A stretch of 64,000 nucleotides of DNA from Branchiostoma floridae (lineage: Eukaryota > Chordata > Leptocardii > Amphioxiformes > Branchiostomatidae): NCBI RefSeq assembly GCF_000003815.2, contig NC_049984.1, positions 12,876,003 to 12,940,002 of the forward strand, given 5' to 3'. The number at the start of each line of letters is the position of its first letter. Within the stretch, counting starts at the first letter, position 1. A program made the position numbers and the translations under genes. Positions 10,301-47,140 of the stretch are shown here, piece after piece. A model generated the notes under the pieces. That model saw only the letters and a list, made by a program, of their open reading frames with translations. It was not told the DNA's origin and searched no databases.

Positions 10301-12384
10301 AGCTTATGAAAATATTTTTTTGTCAGTTTAAGATGACAGATATAACAATAAAAATCCATGACATGTGCGAGTGGGTTGTAAAAAAATTTGATGCTGGAGA
10401 CATCCTGGATGATTACGTTGTATTTCTCTTTAATAGTTGTGTTTATGTGTAATTAAATAAGCTCAGCAAGATAGCATGATTTCCCGAATCTGATGTGATT
10501 CTAGGGTGCTTCCAATAGCTTCCTGCCTTACATCAGTGTCCCTGATTAGCAGATGTTTCAGACAACAGCACTAAAACATGCTTTGGTTTCAGGAATCAGA
10601 ACAAGATGTGAGTACCAGTACAGAAGTGGTACCGTAGTATGTATGTAGATCTGTTCAAACTTCAAACAAGCTGAGATGATACACCATTAACATAGCCTCT
10701 GGAACAGGATGTACTAGTCAAGCTTTTTTGTTGCTCATAATATGCTTTTTTTCTGATTATGTCAGTTCTATTGCACCCAGTTTCTTGTGGCCATGCCTCA
10801 TAGAACTGATTTGCCATCAGAAAAGGAGCATGATACAAGTACCCAAAAGCCCAACTTGTAGAGCCTGCTACAGAGTCTACCATTAACACTTTTGGGGGCA
10901 TAATAATACTAAGGTCAATGGTTCTCACTACTGGTGCTGTTGGCATTGTTGAGGTGTACTCCTGACTAATGTCCTTCTTCCATTTCCATTACATCTGCAT
11001 TCCAAGGGTTTGGCCTGGAAAAAAGGAATGTTGTGTTTCAAGTTACCTGACCAAGTCTAGTAAAATCCTGTCAGCCTTAGCCCTTTTTTGGGGTCCACCT
11101 TTGGTAAGGGATATAAAGATTTTCGATCTGACATCTGAGTGATGAAAATATTGTAGAATCATTTTCCAACATGTTCTCTGTCCTCATTTCTTTTGCAATA
11201 GAAAGTTGCACTTGTACAATTTATACCTGTATATAGAAAATGTGCTGTTGAAAATACAAAATACATCCTGATGCATTTCAGTTTTGACTGGTTGGGTCAC
11301 TTCCGCTGAAATCTGAAAGAATCTACCTACCCTAATTTTTTCAGGACCATAATTGCAAACACGATATTAGTTTTCCATGGCCAAGGTTTAACAAAACTGC
11401 AGCGGTGCTCCAAAAATGCTAGATGGGGTTTTGGTCACTTGTGAGCTCTATCATAAATATCTGCCGTCTCTTTGCATGCTTTTGACATTTTCTTCTACCA
11501 CATTGCAGGGAGTGGACTTCATTGGTCGATCTGCCCTGCTCAAACAGAAGCAGGAAGGAGTGAGACAGAAATTTGTCATGTTCCTATTGGACAATCATGA
11601 CCTGGACAATGACCTTTGGCCTTGGGGAGGGGAGCCAATCTGGGAGGGTGGAAGGGTCGTTGGCAGGACAACGTCAGCGGGCTATGGATACACGCTGAAG
11701 AAACAGGTTTGTGCATTGCTTTCCTCGTTACTATTTGAGTCTAACAAAAAGGTAGACTGCATACCTTTTTTCATGAGATGTAGGAAGCTGTTTTTATTCA
11801 CGGTCAATCATAGCTGGCTTGCCCTAATTCTATTTTAGGCATTATCATTAAGTTGTTCAGTGGCTTCAATTCTACCAATGAGGTTGTATAGGCTATATAA
11901 TTACCTCCTTGATTTTACATAGTATGTTGTTTGTTATGCAGAATTAGTGGAACAGAAGGTTGCCCAGAAGTGACATCAAAAAGTCCAGTTGTGTATCTAG
12001 TGTGGTCATTGCATTTTCCTTTTAGGAATGCATATCAATTTATTGTTAAGCGTCTATGTCTTCCTAATTGTACCGTTTAGCATTGCTGGCCCCTCTACAG
12101 TTGCCGTTAGCCATTGCCATGTCCTCCCATGCAGATATTCAGGTTGAAAGATTTGAAACAACCCTCAGTATGTGATGTTGTCTTTCATTGGAAGTGTCAC
12201 ACATGGTTGATGAATGTACTTGTGACATCTACAGGTGTGCCTGGGTTTTGTGCACAATCCTGACCCACAGACTGGAGAACATCAGATCATCACCAACAAC
12301 TTCATCACCAAGAGCAAGTTCGAGATCCAGATAGCTGGGAAGAAATTCAGCGCTGCGGCACGACTGTTTCCCCCACAAATTTGA
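1396..12384 (+). CDS. PDPR: pyruvate dehydrogenase phosphatase regulatory subunit, mitochondrial (PDPR-like)
   Basis: Seventeen exons encode 894 residues (human PDPR is about 879): 1396-1703, 2223-2353, 2701-2782, 3241-3404, 4043-4164, 4721-4838, 5000-5152, 5582-5706, 5975-6167, 6406-6561, 7093-7244, 7881-8029, 8615-8825, 9314-9403, 9919-10101, 11509-11706, 12235-12384. All junctions are GT-AG and phase-consistent. The Arg/Ser-rich first ~60 residues look like a mitochondrial import signal. A DAO-type FAD-binding fold follows, with the dinucleotide motif GGGAIG at residues 76-81. The C-terminal half is the folate-binding T-protein-like domain (HTGMLNHYGGYENDCS, SHSGELGWMLY, FAFWG). In mammals PDPR lowers the Mg sensitivity of PDP1 and so restrains reactivation of the pyruvate dehydrogenase complex in the matrix. 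PDPR-specific stretches (EEDWDHF, DVPVG, YENDCS) favour it over DMGDH or SARDH. Oddity: it has a TWHAAG motif (H111) that I recall as replaced in mammalian PDPR. Confidence 0.9.
2388..2580 (+). repeat. tRNA-derived SINE in PDPR intron 2
   Basis: Starts with an A-box-like TGGCACGGTGG, followed about 60 bases later by a degenerate B-box (GAGTGCAAATCCCTG), then a SINE-body-like tail. A diverged copy with the same start (TTGTGGTTAGGGTT) lies at 55864-56040, which shows it is an interspersed repeat. Confidence 0.55.
3725..3835. repeat. interspersed repeat with ACCGACGTTTCGGTGACC core
   Basis: The segment holds GTGCTTTATTCTCACCGACG, TTTCGGTGACCGTCTGTCAC and CTTCTTCAGGGCAATTCTGA in a row. A related segment in the opposite orientation occurs at 49075-49145 (CAGGCGTTCACCGAAACTTT then AATAAAGAGTCTCTTTG), so this is a dispersed element end. 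Lies in PDPR intron 4. Confidence 0.45.
5664..5836 (+). repeat. exon 8 end and its splice donor duplicated in tandem into the intron
   Basis: The last ~45 bases of PDPR exon 8 (core CCCCTGACCTGTTCC...CAGGCTCCTGAGGTAG) recur at about 5727-5776 and again, shortened, at about 5802-5836. The first intronic copy keeps the GAG|GTAG donor but is followed at once by TGA. Confidence 0.75.
6593..6739. mobile_element. MITE, TACTGTAAATG family (degenerate copy)
   Basis: Begins TACTGTAAATA and ends CATTTAAAGTA, approximate inverted repeats, with CG-rich inner arms (GCGGTGAAGCGGCC, AACGCGAAAACCGCGAAC). A better preserved 212-base copy is at 53679-53890. TA at each end fits a TA target-site duplication. 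Lies in PDPR intron 10. Confidence 0.6.
9399..9715 (+). repeat. tandem duplication in PDPR intron 14, including the exon 14 donor
   Basis: A unit with GTGGAGTATCTATGGTATCA, CCTTAACAGAACATAT and ATTCATGTGTATAAGGATGA is present at 9404-9519, partially at about 9520-9585, and again at about 9586-9715. The third unit begins GGAGGTAGGTG, copying the authentic exon 14 end and donor (9401-9410). Confidence 0.7.
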
Positions 12385-23300: not shown

Positions 23301-26300
23301 AAGAACTACCTGTCAGTGTGAGTTATCACCACATAATGATAATTCACATTGTCAATTTATAAACCTATGCTGGTCTGTCTTTAACATATTGACTCAATGA
23401 ATGCATTCAGAACAGTTGGTGTAGAACTGAAGTTTCCAAGTGAGAGAAGTTCAAGAGTCCCCTCTACAGGGTAAAGCCAGACAACACGGCTTGTACCACG
23501 TCCTGTTGAACATCTCGAGCGTCTTTGCTTGGAAGGAGAGAACCCTTCAGTTTGGGCAATTGGGGGAACTGGATGGTTGCTTATCAGTAACAGTTGTGTG
23601 CAAACTGTGGCAGGCTTGTGTTGACAAGGCGCACACTTTACCTGAGCTATGTCAACAAAATCCTGCCAAGGCAGTGGTTCAGTGGGAGGGGTTACCGTCA
23701 CGCACAGGTGTGCAAATGTTAACAGGTAAACAAGTCCAGCTGAGCCAGCAGTTTAGTTTTGAACTTAGTCCAACTCGGGGGGAAAAACGGATCAAATCGA
23801 AAATTTGTGTACTAAATGACATGTACAGGTCCTTTGTTTTAGTTCACAATGGCTGAAACATGTACGGGAACATAAACTCACTCACTCACATAAACATTAG
23901 AGTTGTGTGTGCAATACTTTCTGTCCCTGTGTGGCATGAGTAATTTCCTACTTGGTATGTTTGATAAGACAAAAAAAATCAATATAAAAAATACTGACTA
24001 ATGGGAATAAACAAGAAGTATCCATAGTACACGTAGGTGTGCGGAAGTGTGGATGCAAAGGTTTCCCTTTGTTACAGATGTATAAGTTGATACGGGTTGA
24101 AACAACAACTTGCCTTGTGACAGGCATGCACCAACATGTACCTGTGATAAATCATGTCCTTGAGGTATTGTACACCTGACAGACCTCTGTTGTTGTGATG
24201 CTCCATGGATTAGTCAGTATTGGGAAATGTGCCAACTTTTCATCAACAGGGACAGTAAACAGGTTTCCGTCCTTCACATGAAAACTGCTGAGCAGACAAA
24301 ATTTGCTAGTCTTGTCTCCAGCCAGATTTAGTATAATATTGTCCCAAGGACAAGGAAGCGAAGCAAAAAAAAAAACAGATTCAAAAGTTTGGATAACGGA
24401 ACCTTGCAATGGTATTAACACTTGTTTAGGTTTGGATACTGCGACCTTGTCTCATTTGGACAGGTAACAATATGTTAAGATCAGTGACCATGGATAGGGT
24501 CTAGGTGAGTGGGCTCTTGTTCTTGGGACAAATTACTAGTATGGCCGTAGGAAGATGCTGAGGCCACAGTTTACTTTAACACTTTAGGGTCCAATATGGT
24601 ACTAAGTAGAAGATTTCCATAGAAAAATGTATTTCAGGTGTTTTAGATCAGGGCATAACGTTACATACACCTCACTGGCAGGAGGAATAGCTTATGGGTT
24701 TGGTCTTTTGTAAGTTTTGAAAAGTGTGTTTTTTTAATTAACCTCCTTGATTAATTGAATAAGATTGATAAACAATGTTAATATCAGTCCTCTTGTCCTC
24801 CCCAGACATATGTTTTACCTTCACCTGAAAGAAGATTTGGCTGAAGGGAGACTGACTGCTCCTACCAACAAGGCAGCCAGGATCGCTGCCCTGATCGCAC
24901 AAGCAGAGACTGGAGACTACGACTGCAACAATGCAGATCTGTACGCCAGCTGCTACCCTGCCTACCTACCAACGTGGTCCAACGACCTCCTTTCCGCCAT
25001 CGCCGCCGAGCACGACAAGATTAGGGGCATGAAGCGGGCAACTGCAGAATACAACATGGTCAAGGAGTGCTCCGAGCTGGAAGGTTACGGACAAGAGAAC
25101 TACGCAGTGAAGGACAGCAGCGGCATCAACATGCACATTGGAGTGGGACCAGAAGGTATCCTCCTAATGGACGATGACCTGAATACCATTCAGAGGTGAG
25201 GCATTGCAGAGATGTAGCTGATGCCATATAATCTGTGGTCAGCGTGGCCGTCTCCTGATATGAGTAAAAGTAAAACTAAGCAGTTGCGAAGTTAAAGCAC
25301 AAGGGAGAGTCAAATCAGGCATGGTCATTTTATATGTAGGTAAAAGGTTTAAAAGGCCACAAAAAGTTCATAATTCTAGGAGTATTGGGGACAATGGGGA
25401 CAATGGAACCATGAGGCTGACATGATCAGTGACATCTGTCAATTTTATACTTTTGTGGCAAACACAGCTAGAATCTGGCAGCTTTATTAAACCATGAGTG
25501 ATATTTTAGATACATAGAAATTGGGCAATAATTGAGAAGAGGAAGCTTTCAAGTTGTTTGCAGTGACAGTTAGATCATCATTGTGTTTTTTTAACTTCCT
25601 TTCCAAGAAAGAACCCAGCAGCCTTCTAATACTTACTGTATATAACAGATATAACATTACATTAACTGATGCATATCATAAGCTGTTTCTAGGAAGTAGC
25701 GTCACCGACTCACCATGCCATGATCGGGTGATACTCAATGTATTCTGAGATATTCTTATAAAGTTCAGTGCCATTTACTAGTAGGCAGTAAAAATGGCAA
25801 TATTTATTTGAATTATACAGTGAGAAAGTTAAATGTCTCCAGTGTATTTTAATTAGCAGGAAAATTTTGACTACCTCACTATTTTCAGTGTCTGATTCCA
25901 ATAAAAAGCTGTAATGTAATAGTATGGCACACAGGATAAAGTGATCTCATTTGGTTACCAGTGGCAACTGCTGGCAGTGAGTCAAAAACAGCCTTCTGGG
26001 TGAGGTCTTGTTTTTCCAGCAAGCGTTGTCATTGTTACTGAATGATCGGGGAAAAAAAAGAAGCAGAAATGTTTACCAGGGCTACATCAGTTCCAAACAA
26101 AAGGCCTTGAGAGTCAGAGGCTCTTCACCCTTGCACTGAATCCAGAAAAGGTTTTATCCACTGCAATATTCATCCCTCTTCATCCACATGACAGAGGCTG
26201 AGGCTAAAAATAGCATAGTTGCTGGGCAGCCTGTACCACTTATGCTGTAGGGGGATTGCACCCAATTCAGCAAGGAAATTAAAAACATGGTGTTTGTCAC

Positions 26301-28768
26301 AGCGGTTGGCAATTTGATAAAAAGTTGTCTTCTCTTTTATGACTTTTTGAATCATCTTGCATCTGTTAAAGTTTTGAATGCTGTTTTGTAATGATCCACA
26401 TCCTTGTCCCGTAATGGTACAGTCCTGCCCAGTGGTAGCCTAGATAACAATGTTCTAAAACTGCCTGAATAATAGCCAGGCTGCTAATTGAGGTGTTATT
26501 GAGGCTGGAGGGAAAAACAACAGCTAGCAAATTCTCCAAATCAAGCGAAGTTGTTTTTCTTCTTTCAATGAAAGGAAACAAAGCTAAATGAAATTACTTT
26601 TTTTATTGAATCATAGAGAGGAAGCTCTTGTTCTCTTTTATTAATTAAACGTCCAAAACCGTCAACGAAATTATTATAAATTTCAAACCAATTTACATTG
26701 AAAGGATTCTTTTTGCTTGTGCTGCAGGTAGAAATTCGATTGATATGAAAAATAAGACTCAAAAGACACGAAGACCACGCCGACAAATTATAGCCCACAG
26801 GAAATGTAAATGTGAGGCTGGCTTGCCTCAAGAGGCAGGTTGGATGTAACGGGACCAATCATCGCCTATATTTGGTAGGCGCTCTAGTGTTGCTGGGGAG
26901 AAGAGACCATTTGTCGGATGGGGACGTTCGCGGCGTAAAACAATAATTTTGTACCACAATGAACAATCTTAGGGCAATTACCATTAAAACCTGAATTGCC
27001 AATTTGGGGTTCAATATTTGATTGATAGTGCCCAGTTCATTAAAGATCATGCATGAATAATGGTGCTCAAGGATGTGCTAAAAACAGAAAAATACATTGT
27101 ATTAATTCACTGACTCAGCAGGGTATCCCCTAAATGATAAATCTGTCTGAAATTTATCAAATGTACCGGATTAGCAGGTGGGAATTAAAGTAGACAGTAA
27201 CCTAGGGAAGAAAGGTTGGAGAATTCAGGACTTGAGGACATGTCAGAACCAAATGATAAGAGATTGCTAAACTGGCACAGGTTCAGGACATACTTATCAG
27301 ATGTCAGCAGTTTTTGGGATCTGTGCAAGTGTCAAAAAGAAGATGCTTGTCATCTTGTGTTTTTTTAAATTCTTCTGGGCCAGTCCTTGGCTGGATCAGT
27401 GACGCCCTCTGTTCTGACCACCTGCTTTGCTGACACTTGTTTCGGCCTGCTTAATTAACAGGTGTTAAAGGCAGAGGTAGCTTACTTACAGGCCTTCCAG
27501 AAAAAGGAATTATAGGCAGACCTGCTAGCTGGTATGTGGGTTGGAATATGTGCCCACTTGTATGTCAATCACAAAATTATGTATTTATTATATATAGATT
27601 AAAGTAGAATAATCTATAGCACAAAGAATGTAAAATGACATGAAGGGCTTATGGAGGTGCACATATCAAATTGCTGTGTTTCTTGCCTATTTTGTTTTTC
27701 CTGACACAGCCATTACTTTCCTAAGCTCCTTGATCTATAAGTGATTTGGCTGTTTGCCACTAGGAACTACAGAGGTGTTGCATGGATGGATGATCTGGGG
27801 GTTTCGTAAACCGGCTTTTTGTGTTCAACATTTAAAGGGAGTGTCCTGAAATCCTACTCAATCCAAAAGTTACTCAAGTGACTAATAAATTTTGCAAACC
27901 ATCATGTTTTAAACAACGTCTCGTGAGTGACAGAATCTGAAGCCCACAGGATGTTACAAATTTCTAGTTTCAAATTTATTACCTTTAAATGTTCTATCAA
28001 ATCAGGACTCAAGTTGCTCTGTTCTTAATGTCCTCATGTTCGTTTCTTTTGTGTTCCAGTGTGCTGTTCACCCAGGTACAGATGGCTACTCATGCAGGGA
28101 AGTGCTTCTTTCTGACGATACTGGAAACGACAGGGACAAACACAACTCTCGGGTTCAAGCTCCCAAACACGAAGATGGCCAACGCCCTCTACCGAGCCGT
28201 GACGGAGAAACATGCATTCTACCGGTGTGAGACCGTGAGAAGCGCTGTCATCACCCAGTTCAGCCGAGACTTTAAGGGCACGCTGGTGTCTCTGTTTAAC
28301 GAGAACACAGTCGTGGGGAAAAAGTATGTGTTTGACGTGCGCCGCACCTGCCGCGAGGTTTATGAGGAGACCAGGAGATTACTGTACACGCGGGGAATGG
28401 CAGTGCAACTGCAGCCAGACACTGCAAACTCCTTGAACAATCTGGCAGAAGGTTGTCGGTGCGACGACATTGACTGTAGGTGTGGATGTGTGGAAGCCGT
28501 GGAACTGCAGGAACGTATTTGTAAGCTGGAGGAAGCGTTGTTGTGTCGGGTGTGTATGGATGAGGAGATCAGTACGGTTTTCTCACCGTGCGGACATGTT
28601 GTTTGTTGCGACGAGTGTGCAGCGTGTTTGGAAGTGTGCCCACTCTGCCGGACAGGGGTGGAACGGACTCAGCACATATTCCTGCCCGCACAGATCTCTC
28701 GGCTGGACATTGAATCTTGCACACAACAGGGTAGAGACTCATTACAGTGCTCTTTGGTGAGCACGTAA
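20360..28768 (+). CDS. MYLIP: E3 ubiquitin ligase MYLIP/IDOL (FERM + RING)
   Basis: Four exons, 20360-20446, 20756-20955, 24806-25195 and 28060-28768, encode 461 residues (human MYLIP is 445). All introns are GT-AG and in phase. The first ATG in a suitable context ([18 protein letters not shown]) matches the family N terminus. Residues 1-~280 form the FERM domain ([45 protein letters not shown]). A cysteine-rich segment at 358-369 precedes a C-terminal C3HC4 RING (C388 RVC ... PCGHVVCC ... CPLCR). In vertebrates the protein recruits UBE2D enzymes at the plasma membrane and ubiquitinates LDLR, VLDLR and APOER2 tails; it was first described as a myosin regulatory light chain interactor. Substrates in this organism are unknown. 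The exon count is low for the window. Confidence 0.95.
20956..24805 (+). other. MYLIP intron 2
   Basis: A 3.85 kb GT-AG intron. Open frames of up to 138 codons occur in it (for example about 21300-21689, 21764-22162, 23440-23856), but none shows a protein-family signature or usable splice context. I see no clear mobile element. Confidence 0.4.
26170..27070. promoter_or_regulatory. candidate intronic cis-regulatory block in MYLIP intron 3
   Basis: Non-coding AT-rich sequence with many homeodomain-like cores (TTAATTAA at about 26640, CAATCAAATATT complements near 27020, ATTGATAG, CATTAAAG, CATGCATGAATAAT at about 27046) and a CCAAT box near 26854. It lacks repeat character. The regulatory role is only a suggestion from motif density. 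Confidence 0.2.
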
Positions 28769-31951: not shown

Positions 31952-34900
31952 TCAGTTAAAGAACATCTTGAGGTTCCTCCGCTGAGTCCAGTCGTCATCG
32001 GTACCACTACTCTTGCCGATGATGTCATACACGTAAGGAAGAAGGGATGGGAAGAGGTTCAGGAAGTCTTCATCGCTCACTCGCTCACGTACCTCCCGTG
32101 GCCTATACAGGAAATAGTCATGTAGATTGATAAGATGTATAAATGTCTAATGAAGAGGTGGGTGCAAAAACAACAAACATAAAACCATAAAACCTCGTTC
32201 AACAATTTCCCATTCACAGTGCATGTCTGCATGTACAAATCTATAAAACAAGTCTCCGTGTTCTACTTACAAGTCCTTGAAATGCTGTTGTGAGTTGCGG
32301 ATAAGGCGGAGAAGGTCTCCTACAGAGCTGTTGTAGCGTCTTTGCTTGCTCATCTCTGACAGCAGATCCTGGTCCACCACTTGAGTCTGAGGACAGGAAG
32401 ACATCTTTTACCAGCCATTTTTGCCATTCGCATCAATCTCATACACGAGTTTAAACCCTCCACAATACCTTCTTTTTTTCCTCAAGTGTTTCTTTGCCAA
32501 TAAATAAAGAAAGGAAATGAATAAGAAATGTTTAGAGTTTTTATGAATTTTCCTAGCCATGCCATATCCCTAGCCATCACATATGTCAGTGGTCCTCCCT
32601 TTCCCTTCTTCACTTAATCAATCCCAGCTATCTCCCTCTCTATGGGTCATTCCTCTGGCAGTCAGTTAAAGAGCTGTCCATGGACTATACCACACTATTT
32701 TCAGGAGTGGGTAAAGACATGTAATTCTGCGTTAACTGAAAGTATTGCTAGGGGCCCAGATCGTGATGTTTCTTCAGTACCATAATAAATTCCCACACGT
32801 CAAAATTCATACAAATCCATCAAAAGGATGCAAACACACCAACACAACCAAAAAGAGTACCCTGTCGGAGATAAATCTCCTTCATGGTTCAAGGCAAACA
32901 AGAAAGGAACTCTGTTCTGTACCCAGTCTTTCTTGCAGATCTTGTTCTTATGGAGGTTGATTTCCCGGAGTACGGCACAGTTTGCCTCACGACTCTCCAC
33001 TTCCGCCTCATTGCCCACACGTCCGAGGAACAGCACTCTCTTGTCAACATCCCACAGGAAAGGATGGCTGGAAATACAAATCGCAACAATGCAGCATGAA
33101 TTACGTGAATTAGTACAGGAACTAACATGCTTGTTACGTTATGTGCAGTTTGCATAGAAACTGCAGTTTTTTTTTACTTTACTTCCTCATTAAACCAATT
33201 TGGAAACAATGTTACTACTCCTATCTATGAAACAAAACCCTGGTTATAACAAAGCACTGTTGGCAAAAAGAAGCATAGTCCTTTAATTAGTGACTCCAGA
33301 TCTGGACAAAGAGGTTGTGAGTTTGAATCCAGGATGCCTTGCTCACCCGACTTGCATGCCACTGGAAAGGGTCACAATCAGTAGGACAGGTCATTAAACC
33401 ATTGGTCCACTGTCCATTATGCTTGTAAAAAAGGACTAAGGGAATTTACCCAGTACAATTATCTTTGATACACTGCACACAGTGTCTGTCTTCTCTGTAA
33501 TTGTAACGACCAGTGGAAGAGTAGCTCAACTGAGTTCATTCAAGCCCAACTCGTTTGAGATCACTTCCGTTTTCACAAGAACTTTGGCTTCTTACCTCAG
33601 CACCTGGTTACAGTCTGGCCGTTTAGTGTAGTCCTCCTGTAACATCCAGTCCAGCATGTGGGATGCCACAGGGTCCTTGATGGGCCCCAGGTCGTGCCGC
33701 CCCTGCATGATGCGCACCTCCACTGCAAATGGCTGCTCCAGATCCCCAAACGGGTGCTGCCCACCGGTCAGGACAAAGAAGGCTATCATGCCTGCAGCCT
33801 GGAGGATTTTTTCACAAAATTGTATCCATCAAAGCATGGTAGGCATAATTTGCATTTTGACTACATATCATTACATGTACATATCCTGCCTTTCAATTGT
33901 GAAACCATTTTTTTGTTGTTTAAAACATTTATCTATCTTAAATCACATTGGCATCATTACTAGTATGACACCGAAAAAGATTCAAAGGCACAAATTTACA
34001 GAGGGATAGATTGTGAAAAAACAAAGATATGAAATGGTAGAAAATACAATTATACTAAGACAAAGAAACCAGTGTGTAGGACATCCATAATATTTATCAA
34101 TCTACTCACATTGCACAGTTAGAACCCACCACCATCACCACAACATGCAGTCACAAAAGCAGGGATCTACAGAAGTGGGGAGATGGTTGTGACATGATGA
34201 CAACATGCAAATTCTACAGCCTAGAGGGGAGGGTAGCCATGCTGTTAGTAGAGCACTACAGACATTATGGGTTAGTGGAATGTGGGCACTGTTAAAATGT
34301 AGCAACTTCTGTGTGGGAGATACCATTATCAACACAACAACTGGTAACTTCTAATCAAAGTAATAAAACAAACTTACAGATCTGCTTGCAATTGCTACAT
34401 TTAGGCTATCTCTATCTTAGGCTAAGTGTTCTTTGAGGCTATATACAGACAAAAACAGATGAACAGATAAGACAATGACAAGTAGTGCACAAAGGAATGA
34501 CGCATGAAACATAGCTATACCTAAAAGCTGTAAATATACATGTAGCAATGTACCTGTACTGTTGTACCTGTACTGCAGCCCCAATAGTGCTGTACCTGTA
34601 ATGCTGCCCCTATAGTGCTGTGCCTGTAGTGCTGTACCTGTACTGCTTTACCTGTACTGCTATCCCTATGGTGCTGTACTTGTAATGCTTTACCTGTACT
34701 GCTGTGCCTATGCTGCTGTCCCTATGGTGTTGTACCTGCAGCCAGCACCTGTAGTGTTTACACGTACTTACAGTGCTGTACCTAGAGTGCTATACCTGTA
34801 GTAGTGCTATACCTGTTGCACAGCTACATGTACACCTCCCCTACCTGGATGTCAGACTCCTTGCGACACGCCTGCTCACTGCAGTAGTCCAGGGTCTCCT

Positions 34901-37900
34901 TCGCCCTCCAGCACCGCGTGCCTGCCGTGTTGGTGTACAGCGTGGTCTGTCGCTCCTCCAAGAGACGGCTATTGCCGAAGTCTGCCAGCCGCACACGTCC
35001 TTTTACATCAATCAGCACATTGGCGGGCTACATAGATGGCACAAAAACAGTCAGGGTTTGAATGTTTATTTCCAGTCTGGAAGTTTGGGAGACAAGCTGT
35101 CAATCAAATCATAAAGCAAAAAAGGAAACATACTGTACACCAAAATGGGGTAGACTGGTAAGTTATATAGTTATCTTTATCTGCATACCCATGCCTGAAG
35201 GCTAATTGCAAGAGAACACACAAATACAGTAACATAAAAAAGGTAATGGTAAAAACTGTCAAGTCTACAGATCTATCTGATATTTCTATGTAAATTACTG
35301 GACAGGTGACTTTTTCTTTGGAGGTAAGCAGCTTCCTTCTATTGATATCTAGGTTTTGTATTTTTTTAGGTCTTCTAGGTGGTGAAAAAGCATGGAGAGA
35401 TTGTGATAACTGTTTAAGAAAGTCTTTTTATTTCAGCCTCGTAATGAAGGCATTTTGTTTTCCGTTGCATCAATTTCAATGTCATACCCTACCTTGAGAT
35501 CCCTGTGTAGGATGGCCCTTGGCTGCTCGTGTAACGTCTGTAGACCCTTCATGATCTGACTGATGATCTTAGGTGCCAGCCTCTGCAGTTCTCCTTGCTC
35601 TGCCAGGCGGTGCACATAGTCCTCCAGCGTGTACTCACAGAGCTCCATGGCAAGGTACCCAAATGTCTCATCCTCCGTAAAGTACTGGGAACAAGTACAA
35701 AGTACCAGAAATGATTAAAGGTTCTATGGAAAATGAGTGTGTAAATGGCCTTCCCTATAATCAACATCTATGGTGTTTGCTTCTCAAGTGTATGTTTTTT
35801 TGTAAACCATCTTGTGCTAGTTTACAAACTGGTTGCCATGTTCACTGTGACATAATTGTCACTTATAATTGACTATTTTTGACATGAAGAATGAATGTTT
35901 GATGGTGTGATTTTCAATAAGAGGAGAAAAGCGTACCGGTATATATAGCACAAACACATACATGTGTATTAATTGAATAGCATAACAATTGTTCTTGAAT
36001 ATAGTTTTAGAGAATATTGTATTTTCTGTATCATACAATCTATAAATCTGGGTACTGTATACTCTTTTCTTTCTTTTCATAGTGCAGGGCATCCCCAGGG
36101 TACCCTGCTGCCCTGCTAGCTACAAGCCTGAAGTACAAAGTGTCGGCTGACCTTGTACTTAATGATGTACTCCTCATCCAGCTCGGCCAGCCGGAGCAGC
36201 TCACACTCGTTCTTCATGAACTGGAAGTTGTCCTCGTGGATCCTCTTCACGGCCACCTCAGTACCATCATTCATGATGCCCAGGTACACGTAGGTGCCGT
36301 CACTCCTGGGGAATGCAGTAAAACATGTCAATAAGGTTAGACATCCAGGTAATACCATACACTAAAAAGCAGTTACTAAAAAAATGGGATTTTGGAAATG
36401 GTCAGGCGTTTCAGATAGTATCCAGTATCGCTGACGAAAGATAATGGATACTATCTGAAATGTCTGTCCGTTTCCGAAATCATATATCATCTAGTTGCTT
36501 GAGTAACTCCTTTTGGGGGTAATAAAGTAAAAGCAGTTATCAGCATAGAGGTAGAGACACATTGCAAAGCCAAGAGTGGGGTATTTGACAAAAACAGCAA
36601 TATGTGAAATTGGTAGAGCTGGCCTTACAAATGTACTTCCATATATTAAGACTGCAACTGCCTTGTTTCTTATTTCATTCACATTTGTTTATTGAGGATC
36701 GGGCTATTAGCAAAATGATAACAACAAGCTCTTTCCTCAAAAAACACAAGTACGAATGTAAATTTTAACTTAATCTAAATTTGTCCTTGTGTTTTTACTT
36801 AATGTACTCAAAATTACGTAAGTAAAAACACAACATACATGCTACAATAATAAAAGCGTAACAATATTGAAAATATGAAAATGAAGCCTTATTTCTTAAC
36901 CTTCACTCTGCTAGATTGCTGGTGACACATATTTGTAAGTTTGGAAAAGTGAGGAGTTCTGAGTATCACTCCTCCTGCTATCATCATGCTAATACATGTA
37001 CAATGTTACAGATCTAATTAGTAATACTGTTGGGCCACAATGACTTATCACAACTCACCCCTTGGCAATGAGGAAGTCCTTCCCTTTAGTGCACATGTGC
37101 AGTGCATCCACTTGTCTGCGCAGGGCGGGGTCCATACAGGCCAGATCCTCCAGCTGCTGGGCCCAGCGTTTGCTCCGACTCAACCACGGCAGGTTCGGCT
37201 TTTTCTTCTCCTCCTTCTTCTCAGCATCAGGACCGGCCGAGCCTTCCTCTCCTTCTGCATCCTTTTCTCCATCTGCTGATTTTTCCTCAGCTGTTTGTGT
37301 CTTTTCACCATCAGCTGATGCTTCTTGACTGTCCTCTGTGTTTTTGTCTTCACCAGCTGCCTCAGCTTTCTCAGCAGCCTCCTTTGCCCTTGCCGCTTCT
37401 TCCTGTCTCCTCTTTTGTTTACGTGAGTAGGCACCTTCCACATTTGGCATCTTTTTTACTGTGGTTTCCACCGATTTCTTTGGCACTTCTTCCTTAGCTG
37501 GTTCAACGGGTGGTTCCTTCTCTTCACTCACCCCCTTCACTGTATCCTCTTTCTCACCCTTTCCTTTGGGTTTCTTACGGCGCTTTTTCCGCTTCTTCCC
37601 CACGGGTGTCTTCTCGCTCTCCTCTGCGAGGAGTTCGGCCTCCATGGCCTGCGCTTGCTCCTGGCGCTCGGTGCGAAACTGGGCCACCAGTTTGACGCAG
37701 GGTTTGTTGCAGCCCAGCATGTCCAGGTACACGTCTAGCATGGGGTGGTAGCAGAACTCCCGCAGGCGCTGGACCCACTCTTCATTCCCGACCTCCATGG
37801 CTGCTGCCAGACAGGCTGCACTGGGCTCCATGCCAAGCTGTAAGACACCAATGTAATTATCACTGTCAAAGTTACAAATTGTACAAACCTACACAGGACA

Positions 37901-40900
37901 GCTGTAGTTGTTTCTACATCCTTCGTTGTTTGTCAGGCAAAGTTTGATTGCAGGTGAAGCAAGCCTGATTGCCCCATTGTGAACTAATACTTTTTTGCTC
38001 CCAACTGATACTCTCTTCATTCCTTCATCTTCCATACATGTCAGTGTTAAGCCTTTGAGCCTAACATGCACACAACAGACTTGCTTCACCTCCAGACATG
38101 CTTCATCTTACTTACAACCAAAAAAGACAACTGGTAAGGCCCAGACTGTCTAAGATACAGCATTTGAAAAAGCCAATGCAAGGCTGATGTTTGATATTAC
38201 TTTAAACAATCCTTTCCCCCTACCTGCATGTACATGTCTGCCAGGCCTGGATAGGCCTTGATGGTGAGAGGTAGCCACGTCTCGCTGTACGTCTTACACT
38301 CTCGCTTGATCCGCTTGACCGCCTTTTCTGCCACTGGCCGGTCAAGGTGCTGCAGGGTCAACATGGCCAGCTTGGACACTTCTTGGCCCAGAACATCAGT
38401 CTGAAAACATAAAGAATTATTATTCCCATCATTAACATACTGTGTACAGTACAGTATATCTATTAATGATTTATTGTCGTATCTGAGCTGGGGTGCACTA
38501 CAATTGGCGATTGTACTTTTTTTACACGCTACCATTTTTTGTCAACCATTATTCTTTTTACTCCAAAAGATCTTATACATGTACATTGTAATTCCATGCA
38601 ATTAGAATTTTGTAGCCATCATTGCACTACAGGGGTAAACACTAGGAAGTGTACAACTATACTCTTTATCAGTTACAGTTCTTCTTACAAGGTAAAATAA
38701 AAACTGCAAAGTGGAATGCTTGAGATGAAGCCTAATGCTTTTTGTTATCTATCGTGTTATGTGGCTTCATCAGAGCTCATCTTTTTTGGCACAAGCACTC
38801 CAGGGTTCTTTTATGTGTAGAGGTTTGATGCCATATTAAAGATACCCATGGGGCTGCCAGCTTTACATCCCACTCAAAAGAATAACGCAACTCTCTTTTC
38901 CAGATTGAGGTGTCCAGACCTGGGCTTGGACCTGGGCCACCAGAATTTGAACCAGATGTGATGTGAACAGTATCAGTATGCACAGACCACTACAAATTGC
39001 AGACAGGTTACCTGTATATATGCCATGTTCAGCAGGTCCACCACACTGTTCAGCAGGTTGTTGTGTGGCAGTTTGCGCAGCTCCGTGCGGACCGTGTCCC
39101 CGTGTGTCTCCAGACAGCCCACCATGGCCAGCACCAGCACACCCATGATCTCTATCTCCAGGAGGTCCAGAGACAGCCGCATGCTCACTTCCAGCAGCGA
39201 TGGAAACATGGTGGGGTAAACCACCAGCACGTGTTCTATTGTCCGAACAAACTTTTTAAAGGCCTCTGTAGCCTGTGGACATACAAACACAAACCTTTCA
39301 ATCACTGCCTTCTTCTATGTACAGCATTGCCCTGGTCCTATTTCCATTTTTGTAAGCATGGCCTCTAACAGCTCAGCCGATCAGAGAATGAGATTTTCTC
39401 AAAGAAAATTTCAGGCCAATCTCTAATAGGCTGACAGCTGGATAGAAGTCATGCCCACAAAAGCCAAGTATTCTGTCCATTTCCAAGAAAGTATGATATG
39501 GTACTTTTAAAGGAAAGCATCAGAAAATTTTCAATTCATTATTTTCCAGTAGTTTACTCATTAAAAAGTTGATGTACGTCAATTTTTACATTGATCCGCC
39601 TATTATGACCCTGTAGACACGTTTGAACTTCGCGCTGTCCTCCTCTCCCCGCCGCGCTGGCCGATGACGTAATGGCCTCGTTCTGATCGTCTGAGATTGT
39701 ATGACGTCACGGATCTAAAACTTCTAGCCAGCCATTTTGCTCGGTGAACCTCGGTCCTCTCAACGGTAAATACTAGTAATCACCCCGCCATTCTGGAGTT
39801 CAGTCCGTTGTTGTTGACAACTTTCGTGGACCTGTAAGTCGCATTGTGATCTGTCTACGAAGCCATAGTCCCCGGGAGACCGAACATGAATGAGCTTGCC
39901 TGCGAGTAAACCGCGCGGCGACGGAACGAAATCAAAACAATGGTGGCGGGGGAGGTTCACGCACCGTGCCATTCCGGACTATTACAAGAGCGAGTTCGGG
40001 TCAGTTCTTACCATCTCCTTTCCGGACAGCACAGCGATAATTACACGTAAGCTTCCACGAATTTTGGTTGAATTCACAGTTGTCCAAACGGCAGGGACAT
40101 TAAAAAAAAACATACCCTTGATCGCTACATATCGAACGACCCCCTTTTCGCGCCGAAACATACATACAGCATTGTTGTTTTTACATACAACTCAGGCCGG
40201 CATTGTGAATTGCGCGAAATGTCGGCTTCGTTTCAGAGTCCGTGATTTGTTTTGAATGAATCCCCAACAATCTCCGCCAAAGCTNNNNNNNNNNNNNNNN
40301 NNNNNNNNNNNNNNNNNNNNNNNNNNNNNNNNNNNNNNNNNNNNNNNNNNNNNNNNNNNNNNNNNNNNNNNNNNNNNNNNNNNNCCGGCCTGGCCTAAGG
40401 ATGGATTTACCTGAGAAACAGAAAATAAAGTGAGAGGCGAGGCGTAACTCGCACGAATCTGTACAAGTTGCGGTGCAATCTGTTTCGGCGCGAAAAGGGG
40501 GTCGTTCGATATGTAGCGATCAAGGGTATGTTGTCAGAAGAAAAATGTTTTTTTTTTTAATGTCACTGCCAGTTGGACAACTGTGAATTCAACCAAAAGC
40601 TTACGTGTAATTATCGCTGTGCTGTCCGGAAAGAAGAAGGTAAGAACTGACCCGAACTCGCTCTTGTAATAGTCCAGAATGGCACGGTGGGTGAACCTCC
40701 CCCGTCACCATTGTTTTGATTTCGTTCCGTCGCCGCGCGGTTTACTCGCAGGCAAGCTCATTCATGTTCGGTCTCCCGGGGACTATGGCTTCGTAGACAG
40801 ATCACAATGCGACTTACAGGTCCACGAAAGTAATTGTCAACAACAGCGGACTAAACTCCAGAATGGCGGGGTGATTACTAGTATTTACCGCTGAGAGGAC

Positions 40901-43900
40901 CGAGGTTCACCGAGCAAAATGGCTGGCTAGAAGTTTTAGATCCGTGACGTCATACAATCTCAGACGATCAGAACGAGGCCATTACGTCATCGGCCAGCGC
41001 GGCGGGGAGAGGAGGACAGCGCGAAGTTCAAACGTGTCTACAGGGTCATAATAGGCGGATCAATGTAAAAATTGACGCACATCAACTTTTTAATGAGTAA
41101 ACTACTGGAAAATAATGAATTGAAAATTTTCTGATGCTATCCTTTAAGGTAAAGGTGTCCAGTAGCCTTTTTGAGGCCATAGGGGCAGTGGGTTGTTATC
41201 CACTGTGTCTTGGCCAAGGTAGTGGAAGGCTGAGCCCATACCTAATTCCCTGACCAAAGTCCCATTTTCACACCTGGGTGGAGTGGGGAAGTCAAGTGTA
41301 GTGCCTTTCCCTAGGACACAACATCTAGCCAGGAATCGATCCCCTGACCTTCTGATCTTGTGTCCACTAGGATAGCTACTTGCACGTTCGATGCCACAAA
41401 TGAAAGGAAAGTGCAACAATAAATGATGCTAACTTATCATACCTTTGCATCCTTCACAAACGTCAGCATGCGAGGAATCTCCTGTCCGAAGAAGTACTGG
41501 TTGTCCTCCCCCTTGAGAAACTGCTGCCCTCTGGGTGCACGGGCCAGCAGACAGAGCAAGGTCACACACAGCAGCGCCAGCGTGATGTTGGTCTTGGTGT
41601 GGCGGTCAATCAGTGACCACAGCACCTCCGTTCCCTGGGCATCCAGCAGCTGGTTAATGGCCTTTTCTGCAACGATTTTCTGCTGACCAGACAACACCTT
41701 GAACAAGACAGCATATACATGTCATCACTCCTTACAGCAGGAAAGCATTTATTTCAAATATGGCAAAACAGGAGCTTCCCACCACAAATCACAACCAAAT
41801 GTCCAGAATGCGAGATATCAAAACCAGAATTTCTGCTGCAGTACTGCAAAAAGCTACTGGGAGGCCTATATTAAACTTGACCTTTGTTTTCCCAATCAAC
41901 CTTCCTACCAAATATCACATGGATCCATCCATGACTTACCTTTGTGAAGGCAACAAAGCACAAATACTTGTCTTGTAGAGTGTGAAAGGTTTGTAACTTT
42001 GCCCATTGTGACTCTTATGCTGGCATGGGGCTTAATACATGAACTCGAGGAGAGACAAAGCAAGAAAAGGGCTGAACCCACCTCCCATATGATGCGAATG
42101 GACTGTTCCACCACGGCATCGTTGTTGTTGTAGTCAGGGTTCCTGATGAGTTCTATCAGGTGAGAGACACACCTCTGTCTGTTCAGGGCAGGCAGGAACA
42201 GCTTAGGGTCGGCCACACACATGCGCTGCAGGATGATCAGCTTCCTGTGGGGCGGGGTGGTCTCATAGTCCAACAGTCTCTACAGGTGACAGGGTGAAAC
42301 AACATGTGTCAATCAGGTTAGATCTCTTTCTACATGTATATTTTTAGGTTTTTATATACATCGTATGTATGTATGTATGTTTGATTCTTTTGTATGAGAG
42401 GCTCAAATCAGCTTTTCATTGGGGTCATAAGAGAAGAGGTAAGGATTAGCCAAATATACCAAAGGTACAGATGACCTTGCATATTTTTACACTGTAGTTA
42501 GAATTGAATGACATAGAACATTTCAGGCTTTAGTGGCTCTGAGCTCATCTGTATTATGATTAAGGAGTTTGGCATTGCCCACAAACACTTCATTTAGTTA
42601 GCAGTGCGATCCAGGTCGTACCCTGACAAGCGGATCCAGCATCTCGCCACAAGTCTTGATGAGCGTAGGGAAGATGGCCTGGGACTGCTCGTCCAGCATC
42701 ATCATCATGGCCTCCTCCACGTGGTCGGGACTGTAGTACCCCGACAGCAGCAGGTGGAACACGATGGTGTCCAGCCCGTGGCTCATGGCGTTCATCAGGG
42801 CCGTCATCCCCGACTTGTCTCTGTGCGTGATGTCGGCGTCGGCCCGCAGGAGCAGGGACACGATGCGGCTGTGGTTCTTGTTACAGGCCACCATCAGGGC
42901 GTCCAGGCCGTCCGGGGTCTGGTGGTTGACATCGGCCCCGTGGTTGATCAGGATCTTCACAATCTTAGCATGGCCCTGGTGGGAGGGGGGCACAAAACAG
43001 TTATGACTGTGACTGTAAATACAGTTATTTTACTTGGAGGTTCATGTTTAGAGGAGGAGAAAAGGAAATTTTTGCAGTGTTTTAAGTTCATGCTTGAAAC
43101 AACTCTTCTGTAGTATAGGAGACATTGGGAACATACAGCCATGATTTCACGGTAGAGAAGTCACTGAAAATCATGAAAAAAATATGGCTAACACTTCAAG
43201 ATTTTCATTTTACTGATGTTATTTGAACTGTATTAATAAATAGACTCCATCCATTGTGAACATCCTAGGAAAGAGTGTTAGAAACACAACTGTTTTTAGA
43301 CTGAACCCTACCTGTATTGCTGCCACAGTGAGGGCGGTGAGCCCGTTCTTGTTGATATGATTGACGTTGGCTCCTGATAGAATCAGCTCTCTCACAACTT
43401 CATCATCTCCCTGGTGCACTCCTAGTAAGAGTGCAGTGTTGCCTTCCTTGTTGGCATAGTTCACATTCACACCTTGGGAAGACAGGCAGGACAATTGTTA
43501 GACCCATTCATAGCAGGATTCATGAATTGGTATTCATGGAGGCATGGGATCGATCATGATTTGATGCGCTGAATCCAACTTCTGAAATGTATTCAAACCT
43601 CCTGAGGCAGATTGGATGGAATTGGGATCGACACACCGCGGACCGGGATTCAGACTGTTCACACATATCCATACAATTCTTATCAGTGGCAGCTGCCATT
43701 CCAGTAACTTTTTGACCAAACGTACAATCACACTGTAGCCATGCATCCATATCAAGAAGTAAAAAAAAACAAAAGTGAAGAAATTGAAAACGGGATAAGG
43801 GATGAAGAAAAGGAGATCTGGGGAGGGTTGAGTTTATCACTACATAATTTTTTTTTTTATGTCAGGATTCTGTGTATTTTTTCTTTATAAATTTTCCATT

Positions 43901-46900
43901 CTTTTGTGAACTTTTTGTGCACGTCTTTTGGGGCTTTCCTTTTGAAAGATTTGTCTTATTTTCTTCCTCCTCGTCACAATCCTTTCTTGTATATGACAAA
44001 TATCACAAGACTAAAATAATGACAAAAATTGTTTGACAGGGTAAGTAATAGCTTAATCCATGCCTTTGTACAAACTGATTATGCAAACAAATTGCAATCA
44101 CACTAGTATACAATGGGCTTGCCCCTCAGGGGTTGCCAAAAAAACATGCTTTAGCTTGACTCTGGAGGAATATTCCCAATGGCTGTTTAAGGAACCCTTA
44201 GTACTCTTCTCATGCTAAATGACAACTGCACCAAATCTCTGTTTGTAATCCAAACTGAGAGAATCAGAGTGCTATCAGTCAAATGCCCTTACCTGATGCC
44301 AGGGCATAAGGATTCTTGAAAGTTCTCCCTGTTATTGTAAAGTGGGTAAGAAAAGAAAATTGAAAAGAGAGAAAGTTTGTATTATGAAAACATGTAATTA
44401 TAAGGGAAAGAATAGAGAAAATACATTCAATTTGAAGCCATGACAGAACAGAGTCAGGGTAAAAGACAAGACGGCATGCTGAATTTCTCCTGACAAAGAA
44501 AGTCAGACACTGTATTGACAATTTGGGTATTTTTGTTTCGTGACTCACGTAGTCAGCTCTGGTGTTCAACATTTGAATGTAGGGTGATGAGAAACATGAT
44601 ATCACTGCAAAGGGTAATGAATATGATATTTCCAAGATATCTAGAACAGCGGTATTCTGTTAAAAGAAAATCATCCAGAGATACATTTGTATCTGACCCA
44701 GTAAAGGGTAATAAAGAAGGTTTCCAATGATTTAAACACAACAGCTGCATTCTGGGCCGAACAAATCACCCAGTGATTTCTGGCCCAACAAAACGTAACA
44801 GATGCACATTTCTAACAAGCACCTGTTATTCCCATTTACAGTATGATACTTCTACTGCCTCTAGGCTTTGGGATTCAGATGGTAGGTTTTTAGGAACGAT
44901 GATGGAGCGACCTTGGAAAGTTGTGTTTTTGATCCTATAAAAATTAGGGTCGGTTGATATAGATCCTTTTTTTTCTTTTGTCGAAGAGATGCAGCAAATC
45001 TTGATGTAAAACTGGCCTTTGAACCTTTTCCAAGTCATGTTTTAATCATACAGATATACATTGTATGAGTACAAGCACAATTTTCTACTGCAACAGAAAT
45101 GAAAATGATTCTACTACATTTTCATCACTCAGATGTCAGATAGACAATTCTATGACCCTTGCCAGTGGCTGACCCAAAGAAAAAGACTTGGGTCATCGGG
45201 GTTTTTCTAAGGACGGTGGGGTAACCAGAAACACAAAACTTTTATCCTTGGCCTGAGAACTATGGAAGCAGAACAAATCTGCATACCTGCTGCAAGGAGC
45301 TGTGTAAGCACGGCGACGGAACCCTTCCCAGCAGCCATCATGAGCGGCGTGAAGCCGTCCTTGTTGATATGGTTGATGTCCGCTCCCTCGGCCAATAGGT
45401 ACGCCACCACGGCGTCCTGCCCGGCCGTCGCCGCCAGGTGCAGCATGTTGGAGCCCTCCCGGTTCAGGTGGTTCACATCTGCACCTGCTGCAAGCAGCTG
45501 AGAAACCACCACGGAATGGCCCCTGCTCACGGCCACCACCAGCGCATTCTCGTGAGTCTTGTTACAGTAGTTCACGTCAGCACCGTTTGCAAGGAGCTGA
45601 AACACCACTGTGCTGTTTCCATAGCCTGCTGCCATCATTAGTGCTGTGTAGCCATCCTTGGGAAAAATAAAATACAATAATGTGCTATAATTTTCAGCCT
45701 GAAATCATATTGTCCATTGGAGATACTGCAATAATCTTAAAAAAAAAAAAACTTAACAGTAGATATAACAAACCATCACATTTTCTGTAACCGTTTGGAC
45801 GTTGGTGATTATGTTACAATAACTTTGTTTAAAAGTTCCAACAAACCAACCTTGTTGCACTGATGAACATCTGCCCCACCCCGCAGCAGAAGGGAGACAA
45901 TCTCCGGGCGGCCTTTACACGCTGCAATCATCAGTGGAGTGGTGCCATCCTGCGTTCATGGGATACAAGATTTCATATCTCTCAAACTTTCCCTGTCATT
46001 TTGTTTCCTTTCCTCCAAATCAAAGTTTTAAACATATTATGACAGTAGGCAAAAGTCACTGAACACAGAAAACTAGATTCTCACCTTCATTGACACAGCA
46101 TTTACATCAATACCGCCGACAAGTGTATTTTTGATGACACGTTCATTCCCCGCGTACACTGCCTCTAGGAAGTGTTCACAGTCTGGATGGATACAGAGAA
46201 CACAATGACTGAATGAAGCAATGTAAAATTAAATGTAAACTGTTAGAAACTAGGAAAGAAAGCGATTGCAAACAAGTAAGTTCTAATGAACTCAATGAAC
46301 AGATTCCAATGGTCGTGACAGAGAAGACATATTCTATGTGCAGTACATATAATTACAGCATTTGAGCATTTAAGTGCAAGTCTTTGTCGGTGAATTTTCC
46401 GATCGAGACAATGTTACTTGGTGAGAAAGATTAGTAGGAACTGAAATCATGTGTAGCTTGCTCATGGTCAATTGATCAACATTTTCTCTATAGTGGCCAC
46501 CTGTCTATAGTGGCCATATTTCTCCAGTTCCTTGAGTGGCCGCTATAGACAGGTTTGACTGTACATGAACAGTGGACCACAGCTTAACGTCCTATCTCGA
46601 GGACTGCAACCCTTTCCTGTAGCACGTATGTCGGCTGAACGACACCTCTTACTCTTAGATTTGAACTCAAGACTACTTGTTCCTGAGGCCGGGTCCACAG
46701 GACTATGTTTATTCATGCTACTGCACAATGTACAAAACATGCAAGAAGCCAGTGTCAACCCAGGGAGGTTGATCCAACTTTGTACATGTGATTGTTGTAT
46801 TTATATATAATTATAATCAGATAAATATTGCTGTCAGAAACTGTTTGGATCTTCCATTAAAATCCATTTGTTTACAGTTTGCTCTCAAATATCAAAATAT

Positions 46901-47140
46901 GGTGATGTAAATATATCAATGCCTAAGTTCTTCAGCACATGTCCAGCACAACAAGGGCAAAAATCAACATATTTGAGCCCCCCTCCCCCACTTTTCATCA
47001 GTGATTATGAATGAATGATATCCATAATCTCATGCTTGCGGTAACTTAACTAGTACGACCTAGTACACAGCGAGATCACAGCACTTACCCTGTTGGCTGG
47101 GGACGAATTTGAAAAGCGCTGGGTCCGAACCTGACGCCAT
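31952..47140 (-). CDS. ankyrin-repeat / IRE1-like kinase / KEN ribonuclease protein (RNase L-related)
   Basis: Eighteen exons, 1315 residues; in transcript order 47089-47140, 46085-46182, 45851-45949, 45287-45656, 43312-43472, 42622-42975, 42082-42279, 41443-41697, 39012-39272, 38224-38400, 37059-37837, 36152-36305, 35493-35684, 34845-35027, 33596-33798, 32923-33067, 32271-32386, 31952-32102. Residues ~18-375 hold ten ankyrin repeats of 33 residues; one exon (99 bases) is exactly one repeat. Residues ~376-740 are leucine-rich and helical, HEAT/ARM-like. A charged linker at ~745-895 contains a polybasic stretch from K756. The kinase has a glycine loop (935-944), VAVK K955, HRDLKPAN (D1048) and DFG (1066-1068). 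The KEN domain follows kinase motif HPFLWDVDK and contains Y1245, D1251 and R1257-N1258-xxx-H1262, the positions used by IRE1/RNase L. It should cut RNA once dimerised. Exon 16 ends at a GTACAG donor, chosen because it restores the IRE1 spacing. RNase L has ankyrins, kinase and KEN but no such middle region. Confidence 0.88.
33286..33440 (+). repeat. SINE-like repeat
   Basis: Contains a B-box-like GAGTTTGAATCCAGG preceded by a degenerate A-box region, and a body (GGACAGGTCATTAAACCATT) of the SINE type. Lies in the intron between exons 15 and 16 of the ankyrin-kinase-KEN gene. Confidence 0.45.
34550..34815. repeat. minisatellite of TGCTGTACCTGTA units
   Basis: About 20 degenerate units of roughly 13-15 bases (variants of GTGCTGTACCTGTA, CTGCTTTACCTGTA, GTGCTGTCCCTATG). 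On the transcribed (minus) strand it reads as repeated TACAGGTACAGCA, so ACAG|GTAC occurs many times just past the exon 14 donor (34844). Confidence 0.8.
36397..36515. repeat. interspersed repeat with GATACTATCTGAAA core
   Basis: Carries GACGAAAGATAATGGATACT, ATCTGAAATGTCTG and CATCTAGTTGCTTGAGTAAC. The same order (GACAAAAGATAGTGGATGTT, ATCTGAAAAGTTAT, ATCCAGTTGTTTGAGTAATT) occurs at 60340-60450, which shows it is a dispersed family. Confidence 0.55.
38700..38990 (-). repeat. tRNA-derived SINE, minus strand
   Basis: On the minus strand a B-box-like GGTTCAAATTC is followed by a long body containing TTTGAGTGGGATGTAAAGCT and GGCAGCCCCATGGG. Lies in the intron between exons 9 and 10 of the ankyrin-kinase-KEN gene. 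Confidence 0.5.
39341..39475. mobile_element. MITE, TTTCCA...GCATGGCCTCTAA family
   Basis: Inverted ends (TTTCCATTTTTGTAAGCATG and, on the other strand, TTTGTGGGCATGACTTCTA) enclose about 60 bases; the inner arms hold CTCAGCC and GGCTGACAGC. A second copy is at 50175-50323. Confidence 0.5.
39507..41147. mobile_element. large inverted-repeat element flanked by TTAA
   Basis: Two ~655-base arms in inverted orientation, 39507-40159 and 40482-41147, estimated by eye to be about 95% identical, with a few small indels. Each outer end is TTAA followed by AGGAAAGCATCAG or AGGATAGCATCAG, and the flanks diverge directly outside TTAA. This suggests a TTAA target-site duplication of the piggyBac kind, though the terminal bases are not typical. 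The arms are CpG-rich and hold a TGACGTCA site (39702-39709 and its mirror). The unique spacer contains the assembly gap. It sits in the intron between exons 8 and 9 of the ankyrin-kinase-KEN gene. Confidence 0.55.
40285..40384. other. assembly gap, 100 N
   Basis: Exactly 100 N, a conventional placeholder for a gap of unknown size. It lies in the spacer of the inverted repeat, where a hairpin would be hard to assemble. Confidence 0.99.
41150..41400 (-). repeat. tRNA-derived SINE, minus strand
   Basis: Read on the minus strand it has a TAGCTATCCTAGTGGACA A-box region and a GGGGATCGATTCCTGGC B box, then a body with TTGTGTCCTAGGGAAAGGCA. It directly abuts the right TTAA end of the inverted-repeat element. 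Confidence 0.65.
46482..46552. repeat. short inverted repeat with CTATAGTGGCCA units
   Basis: Two direct CTATAGTGGCCA units followed by an inverted GTGGCCGCTATAGACAGG, able to pair with CCTGTCTATAGTGGCCA. It lies in the first intron of the ankyrin-kinase-KEN gene and looks like a fragment of a dispersed repeat. Confidence 0.45.

Follow-up and report, generated by a model that had tools for sequence, protein, structure and literature searches.

RNase L and IRE1 are the closest described relatives of the gene considered here. Vertebrate RNase L (human structures 4oau and 4oav, pig 4o1o) has N-terminal ankyrin repeats close to its kinase domain, a degenerate kinase that lacks an activation segment, and a C-terminal KEN endoribonuclease domain with an R-x4-H site. 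IRE1 likewise pairs a kinase with KEN but has a luminal part in place of ankyrin repeats. We present here a gene from the lancelet Branchiostoma floridae, located in a stretch of 64,000 nucleotides (NC_049984.1, positions 12,876,003 to 12,940,002; hereafter the window), whose predicted product joins ankyrin repeats, a kinase, and KEN and which we place, with some reserve, on the RNase L side of this superfamily.

The distribution of RNase L among animals has been described in several papers, cited here from excerpts. That of PMC6307210 reports that RNaseL was not found among four sponges and a further eight lower metazoans, without naming amphioxus, and concludes that OAS was present and RNase L absent in early animals. 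Aplysia is described as having neither OAS nor RNase L in the excerpt of PMC9334734. For Nematostella, the excerpt of PMC8476169 lists homologs of RNase L and OAS1 among the poly(I:C)-responsive genes, and that of PMC13319465 reports OAS1 and mentions RNase L in the introduction only. KEN-kinase fusions, some with ankyrin repeats, and an expansion of solo KEN genes in Oikopleura appear in the excerpt of PMC3710099. An initial annotation of the window noted that RNase L is usually described as vertebrate-restricted, a description that agrees with the lower metazoans surveyed in PMC6307210 and conflicts with the Nematostella homolog of PMC8476169. That homolog, like our gene, comes from an invertebrate, and Nematostella also has OAS1; the comparison is by name and not by domain layout. 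Among the matches listed in a search of the open-licence literature, none dealt with the window gene or with RNase L in amphioxus.

The gene was rebuilt as a chain of 18 exons and 17 introns, with GT-AG borders at all 17 introns, running from an ATG at 47140 to the end of a stop codon at 31952. Its coding length is 3948 nt (1315 residues plus stop), and this rebuild reached the exon number and protein length given by the initial annotation. Exon limits were set manually, with splice scores, phase, and domain homology as guides, and a gene finder was not their source. The weakest junction is the donor of exon 16 (TGG/gtacag), which was picked by KEN homology among many GT/GC candidates, and the donor of exon 6 is also among the weakest. 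Judged by its sequence, the locus is a real, complete-looking predicted gene that belongs to a variant family of RNase L type.

Pfam searches of the 1315-residue protein matched Ank_2 (E = 9.5e-81), Pkinase (residues 935 to 1183), and Ribonuc_2-5A (residues 1191 to 1298), each above its own cut-off; the single-repeat Ank model passed on 8 stretches. These are the three families that the initial annotation had proposed to look for, and its order of ankyrin repeats, charged linker, kinase, and KEN is borne out (residues 761 to 905 are 20% E and 18% K). Its "helical middle" found no support in any profile, as residues 335 to 760 matched no Pfam family and residues 335 to 736 no PDB entry at an E value of ≤10. 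The first and last of the ten ankyrin repeats are weak. Kinase catalytic residues are in place (K955, E968, D1048, N1053, and D1066), as are those of the KEN site (Y1245, R1257, N1258, and H1262, giving R-x4-H), and, unlike RNase L, the protein has HRD, DFG, and an activation segment. With a kinase followed by Ribonuc_2-5A, the protein is by sequence a member of the KEN (IRE1/RNase L) superfamily, and the prediction that the gene encodes a nuclease is well supported.

The mitochondrial genome of the assembly, on a contig of 15,083 bp, has its genes, named from their translations, in the order COX1, COX2, ATP6, COX3, ND3, ND4L, ND4, ND5, ND6 (reverse), CYTB, ND1, ND2, which is the chordate order. 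A family search for GFP was negative, a result that would count against amphioxus but is no proof of absence. A family search of the genome, an assembly of 513.4 Mb in 431 contigs, found KEN at no fewer than three places: the window gene, the animal's own IRE1, and a paralog. Own IRE1 (C6:3265636) shares 72.9% identity with its human counterpart over the kinase-KEN part and has a hydrophobic stretch ahead of the kinase that looks membrane-like by eye. The paralog (C5:17896778-17897104, minus strand; L113:2712-4160, minus strand) is a single open frame of 482 residues, 47.6% identical to the window gene over kinase-KEN. Its KEN residues are kept, whereas HRDLC and GFG replace the HRDLK and DFG of the window gene, and tblastn (E ≤ 10) found no ankyrin match in the surrounding 28 kb. 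A frame of 434 residues lies upstream of the paralog on the same strand, with Pfam matches below cut-off only. Having lost the DFG aspartate and kept the KEN residues, the paralog looks as if it were retracing the route of RNase L to a pseudokinase.

Unrooted trees of the kinase-KEN part were computed from five and from seven sequences under the models LG+G4 and LG+C20+G4 (C20). With five sequences, the window gene fell outside human and yeast IRE1, with an approximately unbiased (AU) test value of 0.009 against each alternative (0.043 to 0.044 under C20), and kinase-only and KEN-only data both favored the tree of the combined data. The observed likelihood difference was reached in 0/60 and 0/200 alignments simulated under a tree with human IRE1 as sister; these simulations used LG+G4 only, and the inner branch of the simulated tree was fitted near zero length. 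With seven sequences, the window gene and the paralog grouped together, apart from a clade of human, own, and yeast IRE1. Joining the window clade to animal IRE1 was rejected (AU P = 0.0007 under LG+G4 and 0.017 under C20), with a Shimodaira-Hasegawa (SH) value of 0.031 under LG+G4. Trees that split the window gene from the paralog and attached RNase L to one or the other were rejected under LG+G4 (AU, 0.018) and retained under C20 (0.10). Kinase-KEN trees, which the initial annotation had called for, place the gene outside the IRE1 group.

Directly ahead of the kinase stands a tryptophan motif, W-x6-W-A-x2-L-x-D-L in the window gene and W-x6-W-G-x2-L-x-D-L in human RNase L; the pig protein has the human form with H for D, and the paralog has W-x5-W-G-x2-L-x-E-L, with a spacing one residue shorter. 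We defined the motif, W-x6-W-[GA]-x2-L-x-[DEH]-L, from human and pig RNase L, having spotted it before testing, and the segments used for shuffling were cut by hand. Shuffles reached the observed score in 17/5000 trials for the window gene with human RNase L and 19/5000 with pig RNase L. The corresponding counts were 4/5000 for the paralog with human RNase L, 0/5000 with pig RNase L, and 1/5000 for the window gene with the paralog, compared with 2154/5000 for the window gene with own IRE1. The motif was not found in own IRE1, the sole IRE1 whose pre-kinase part was compared. VGNE, GDLL, LID, and LAD are common to the window gene and RNase L and absent from the IRE1 proteins compared; the paralog retains VGN and GDLL. 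By sequence, the motif and these residues tie the family of the window gene and the paralog to RNase L rather than to IRE1.

Raw similarity leans the other way. In phmmer comparisons, the kinase-KEN part reaches 175.9 bits with IRE1 versus 84.1 with RNase L, and KEN alone 58.1 versus 42.2. The initial annotation had judged these segments closer to IRE1, which holds for raw similarity and is misleading as ancestry, because the genome has its own IRE1, the trees exclude the window gene from the IRE1 group, and the pre-kinase motif and some residues are common to RNase L and not to IRE1. Human and yeast IRE1 are 48 to 49% identical to each other; slow evolution of IRE1 combined with fast evolution of RNase L would, we infer, yield such figures under either ancestry.

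Two accounts would undo this placement at its base. One holds that the gene model is an artefact in which ankyrin exons and kinase-KEN exons of two adjoining genes have been joined, and it could draw on intron 8, which is about 2.2 kb long and contains both a palindromic insert and a gap in the assembly, and on exon limits set by hand in a model known from DNA alone. We regard it as very unlikely. Exon 6 spans the ankyrin repeats and the beginning of the middle region, and exon 11 runs from the end of that region through the linker into what alignment places at the start of the kinase lobe; because these two exons bridge the domain boundaries, we read the locus as a single gene, and each of exons 5 to 10 finishes in phase 0 with the frame unbroken. 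The other account, in which the animal's own IRE1 was recently duplicated and the copy had its luminal part swapped for ankyrin repeats, would fit the higher raw similarity to IRE1 and is, in our estimate, slightly less probable still. Own IRE1 and human IRE1 are 72.9% identical, as given above, whereas the window gene is 33% identical to both, and the tree with own IRE1 as sister was rejected with seven sequences (AU, 5e-77 under LG+G4 and 0.0015 under C20). On this identity pattern and these AU tests, such an origin is rejected on the present data.

Our preferred reading, which we hold to be probable though far from secure, is that the gene encodes a sensor-gated endoribonuclease of RNase L type, which falls within the KEN (IRE1/RNase L) superfamily and is distinct from IRE1. 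The ankyrin array, perhaps together with the middle region, would bind an activating ligand or partner, and this binding would join two copies of the protein. The ATP-binding kinase domains would then dimerise, and the paired KEN domains would cut RNA through the conserved Tyr/Arg/Asn/His site. The expression and location of the product, its gating by a ligand, dimerisation, RNA cleavage, and any defence role or OAS link are inferred. Several observations weigh against this reading. The window gene is 33 to 34% identical to IRE1 versus 27% to RNase L, and among 74 columns that consistently separate the two it agrees with IRE1 in 34, with RNase L in 11, and with neither in 29. With five sequences, an alternative was rejected (AU < 0.05) in 2/6 tests of kinase-only data and 0/6 of KEN-only data, and the SH value for the animal-IRE1 tree under C20 was 0.061. 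The trees part the window gene from IRE1 and do not place the root of the split with RNase L; because they are unrooted, they do not prove that the gene and RNase L arose together. The pocket for 2-5A (2′,5′-oligoadenylate) was compared at W60, K89, F126, E131, and R155 of human RNase L (repeats 2 and 4, with repeat-9 residues outside the test), which are residues that were mutated in PMC5927464 (excerpt); in eight ungapped registers, at most 1/5 was identical (F, register R4/R6). Binding of 2-5A in the known RNase L manner is therefore unlikely, as judged from these residues. In addition, 541 residues separate the ankyrin repeats (residue 347) from the pre-kinase segment (residue 889), in contrast to the short distance in RNase L. 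Within 2 kb upstream, no interferon-stimulated response element (ISRE) was found on the gene strand, with one reverse ISRE-like site. The protein is probably cytosolic; we put this no more strongly because hydropathy in two parts of the middle region is above the usual limit for a membrane span (2.02 at residues 562 to 580 and 1.87 at 480 to 498), and membrane attachment through them is possible on sequence grounds.

The unconserved pocket and the long spacer would also suit a parallel invention, in which ankyrin repeats were added to a KEN kinase within this lineage, separately from RNase L, and the activator is a protein or another small molecule rather than an OAS product. The lack of an ankyrin match in the 28 kb around the paralog points the same way, and the repeats are not specific to RNase L, scoring up to 343 bits against generic ankyrins versus 105 against RNase L. 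The pre-kinase motif and the residues common to RNase L, on the other hand, suggest shared ancestry of at least the kinase-KEN part, and we consider a parallel invention rather unlikely. If the gene is of RNase L type, as we prefer, its ligand may be an OAS-made oligonucleotide, though not one bound via the known RNase L 2-5A pocket. The fuller proposal, that the amphioxus OAS cluster makes an oligonucleotide that activates this nuclease through a pocket unlike that of RNase L, in a pathway that predates vertebrates and used other ligands, is offered as a doubtful one.

OAS-type genes in the same genome speak for our preferred reading. OAS1_C was matched at 22 exon places in the genome, 17 on C8 (a cluster at 22.621-22.662 Mb), 3 on C16 (13.768-13.782 Mb), and 2 on C5 (11.812 Mb). 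At least six of these stretches contain stop codons, for which exon edges or decay are possible reasons. The nucleotidyltransferase motif occurs at 8 places in 98 kb and is intact at 6; one of the others has SGID in place of SDxD, and one is a variant on C16. At the one OAS-type place checked with Pfam, NTP_transf_2 was barely above the cut-off (22.2 versus 21 bits). Upstream of the window gene, the same 2 kb holds two kB-like sites and one gamma-activated-site (GAS)-like site, counts that were not compared with chance level and not used, and no endoplasmic reticulum stress response element (ERSE).

An ankyrin-kinase-KEN gene in an invertebrate chordate offers a place to test the origin of the RNase L defence pathway. 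The conclusion of PMC6307210 (excerpt) that OAS was present in early animals and RNase L absent leaves old OAS enzymes without a known partner, and direct candidates for that partner are supplied by a genome in which OAS-type genes occur alongside an IRE1 and two other KEN proteins, of which one carries ankyrin repeats. The contrast between the ankyrin gene, whose kinase still has its catalytic residues, and the paralog, which has lost the DFG aspartate, bears on the origin of the RNase L pseudokinase.

Relatives were also sought in viral and prokaryote collections, which hold no animal genomes and so are uninformative on animals. Kinase-KEN and KEN-only queries of the viral contigs found no relative. 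An alignment query gave 28 viral-contig loci and 548 prokaryote relatives, of which the best 80 were taken; these matches were confined to query residues 1 to 289 of 389, mostly kinase. A KEN profile built here matched none of the open frames of ≥60 residues in those 108 loci at an E value of ≤10.

Table 1. Features of the ankyrin-kinase-KEN gene (window positions)
Feature	Position	Strand	Basis
Whole gene, 18 coding exons, 1315 aa	47140 to 31952	-	Splice reconstruction, phases consistent
Ten 33-residue ankyrin repeats, aa 18-347, exons 2-6 (part)	42715..46182	-	Pfam Ank families; repeat register
Middle region, aa 348 to about 755, exons 6-11 (part), no known family	37598..42714	-	Pfam and PDB searches empty
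E/K-rich linker, about aa 756-888, exon 11 (part)	37199..37597	-	Composition; limits by eye
Pre-kinase segment with tryptophan motif, aa 889-934, exon 11 (end)	37059..37198	-	Shuffle test
Protein kinase domain, exons 12-16 (part)	33055..36305	-	Pfam Pkinase, E 3.3e-38; residue table
KEN endoribonuclease domain, exons 16-18	31952..33066	-	Pfam Ribonuc_2-5A, E 7.5e-23; residue table
Palindromic insert around 100-N assembly gap, intron 8, outside protein	39507..41147		Inverted repeats; N run 40285-40384

The palindrome in intron 8 consists of four arm pairs, 94 to 100% complementary, that flank the gap; it is either a foldback element or an artefact of assembly. Searched against the genome, the middle region gave 7 matches, 6 of them the gene's own exons. 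The seventh is a lone relic of exon 10 that holds a stop codon (55.7% identical; C6:12942992-12943174, minus strand, listed at C6:12942986), at about window position 67172 and about 20 kb upstream of the start codon. In the 40 kb around it, tblastn (E ≤ 1) found nothing else of the window gene, and a tandem copy was rejected in favor of this isolated relic. Elsewhere in the window, exons at 1381-11706 (plus strand) match DAO, FAO_M, GCV_T, and GCV_T_C and presumably belong to a gene of the sarcosine or dimethylglycine dehydrogenase kind. FERM and RING exons lie at 24822-28708 (plus strand), in what we take to be probably a MYLIP/IDOL-like ubiquitin ligase gene.

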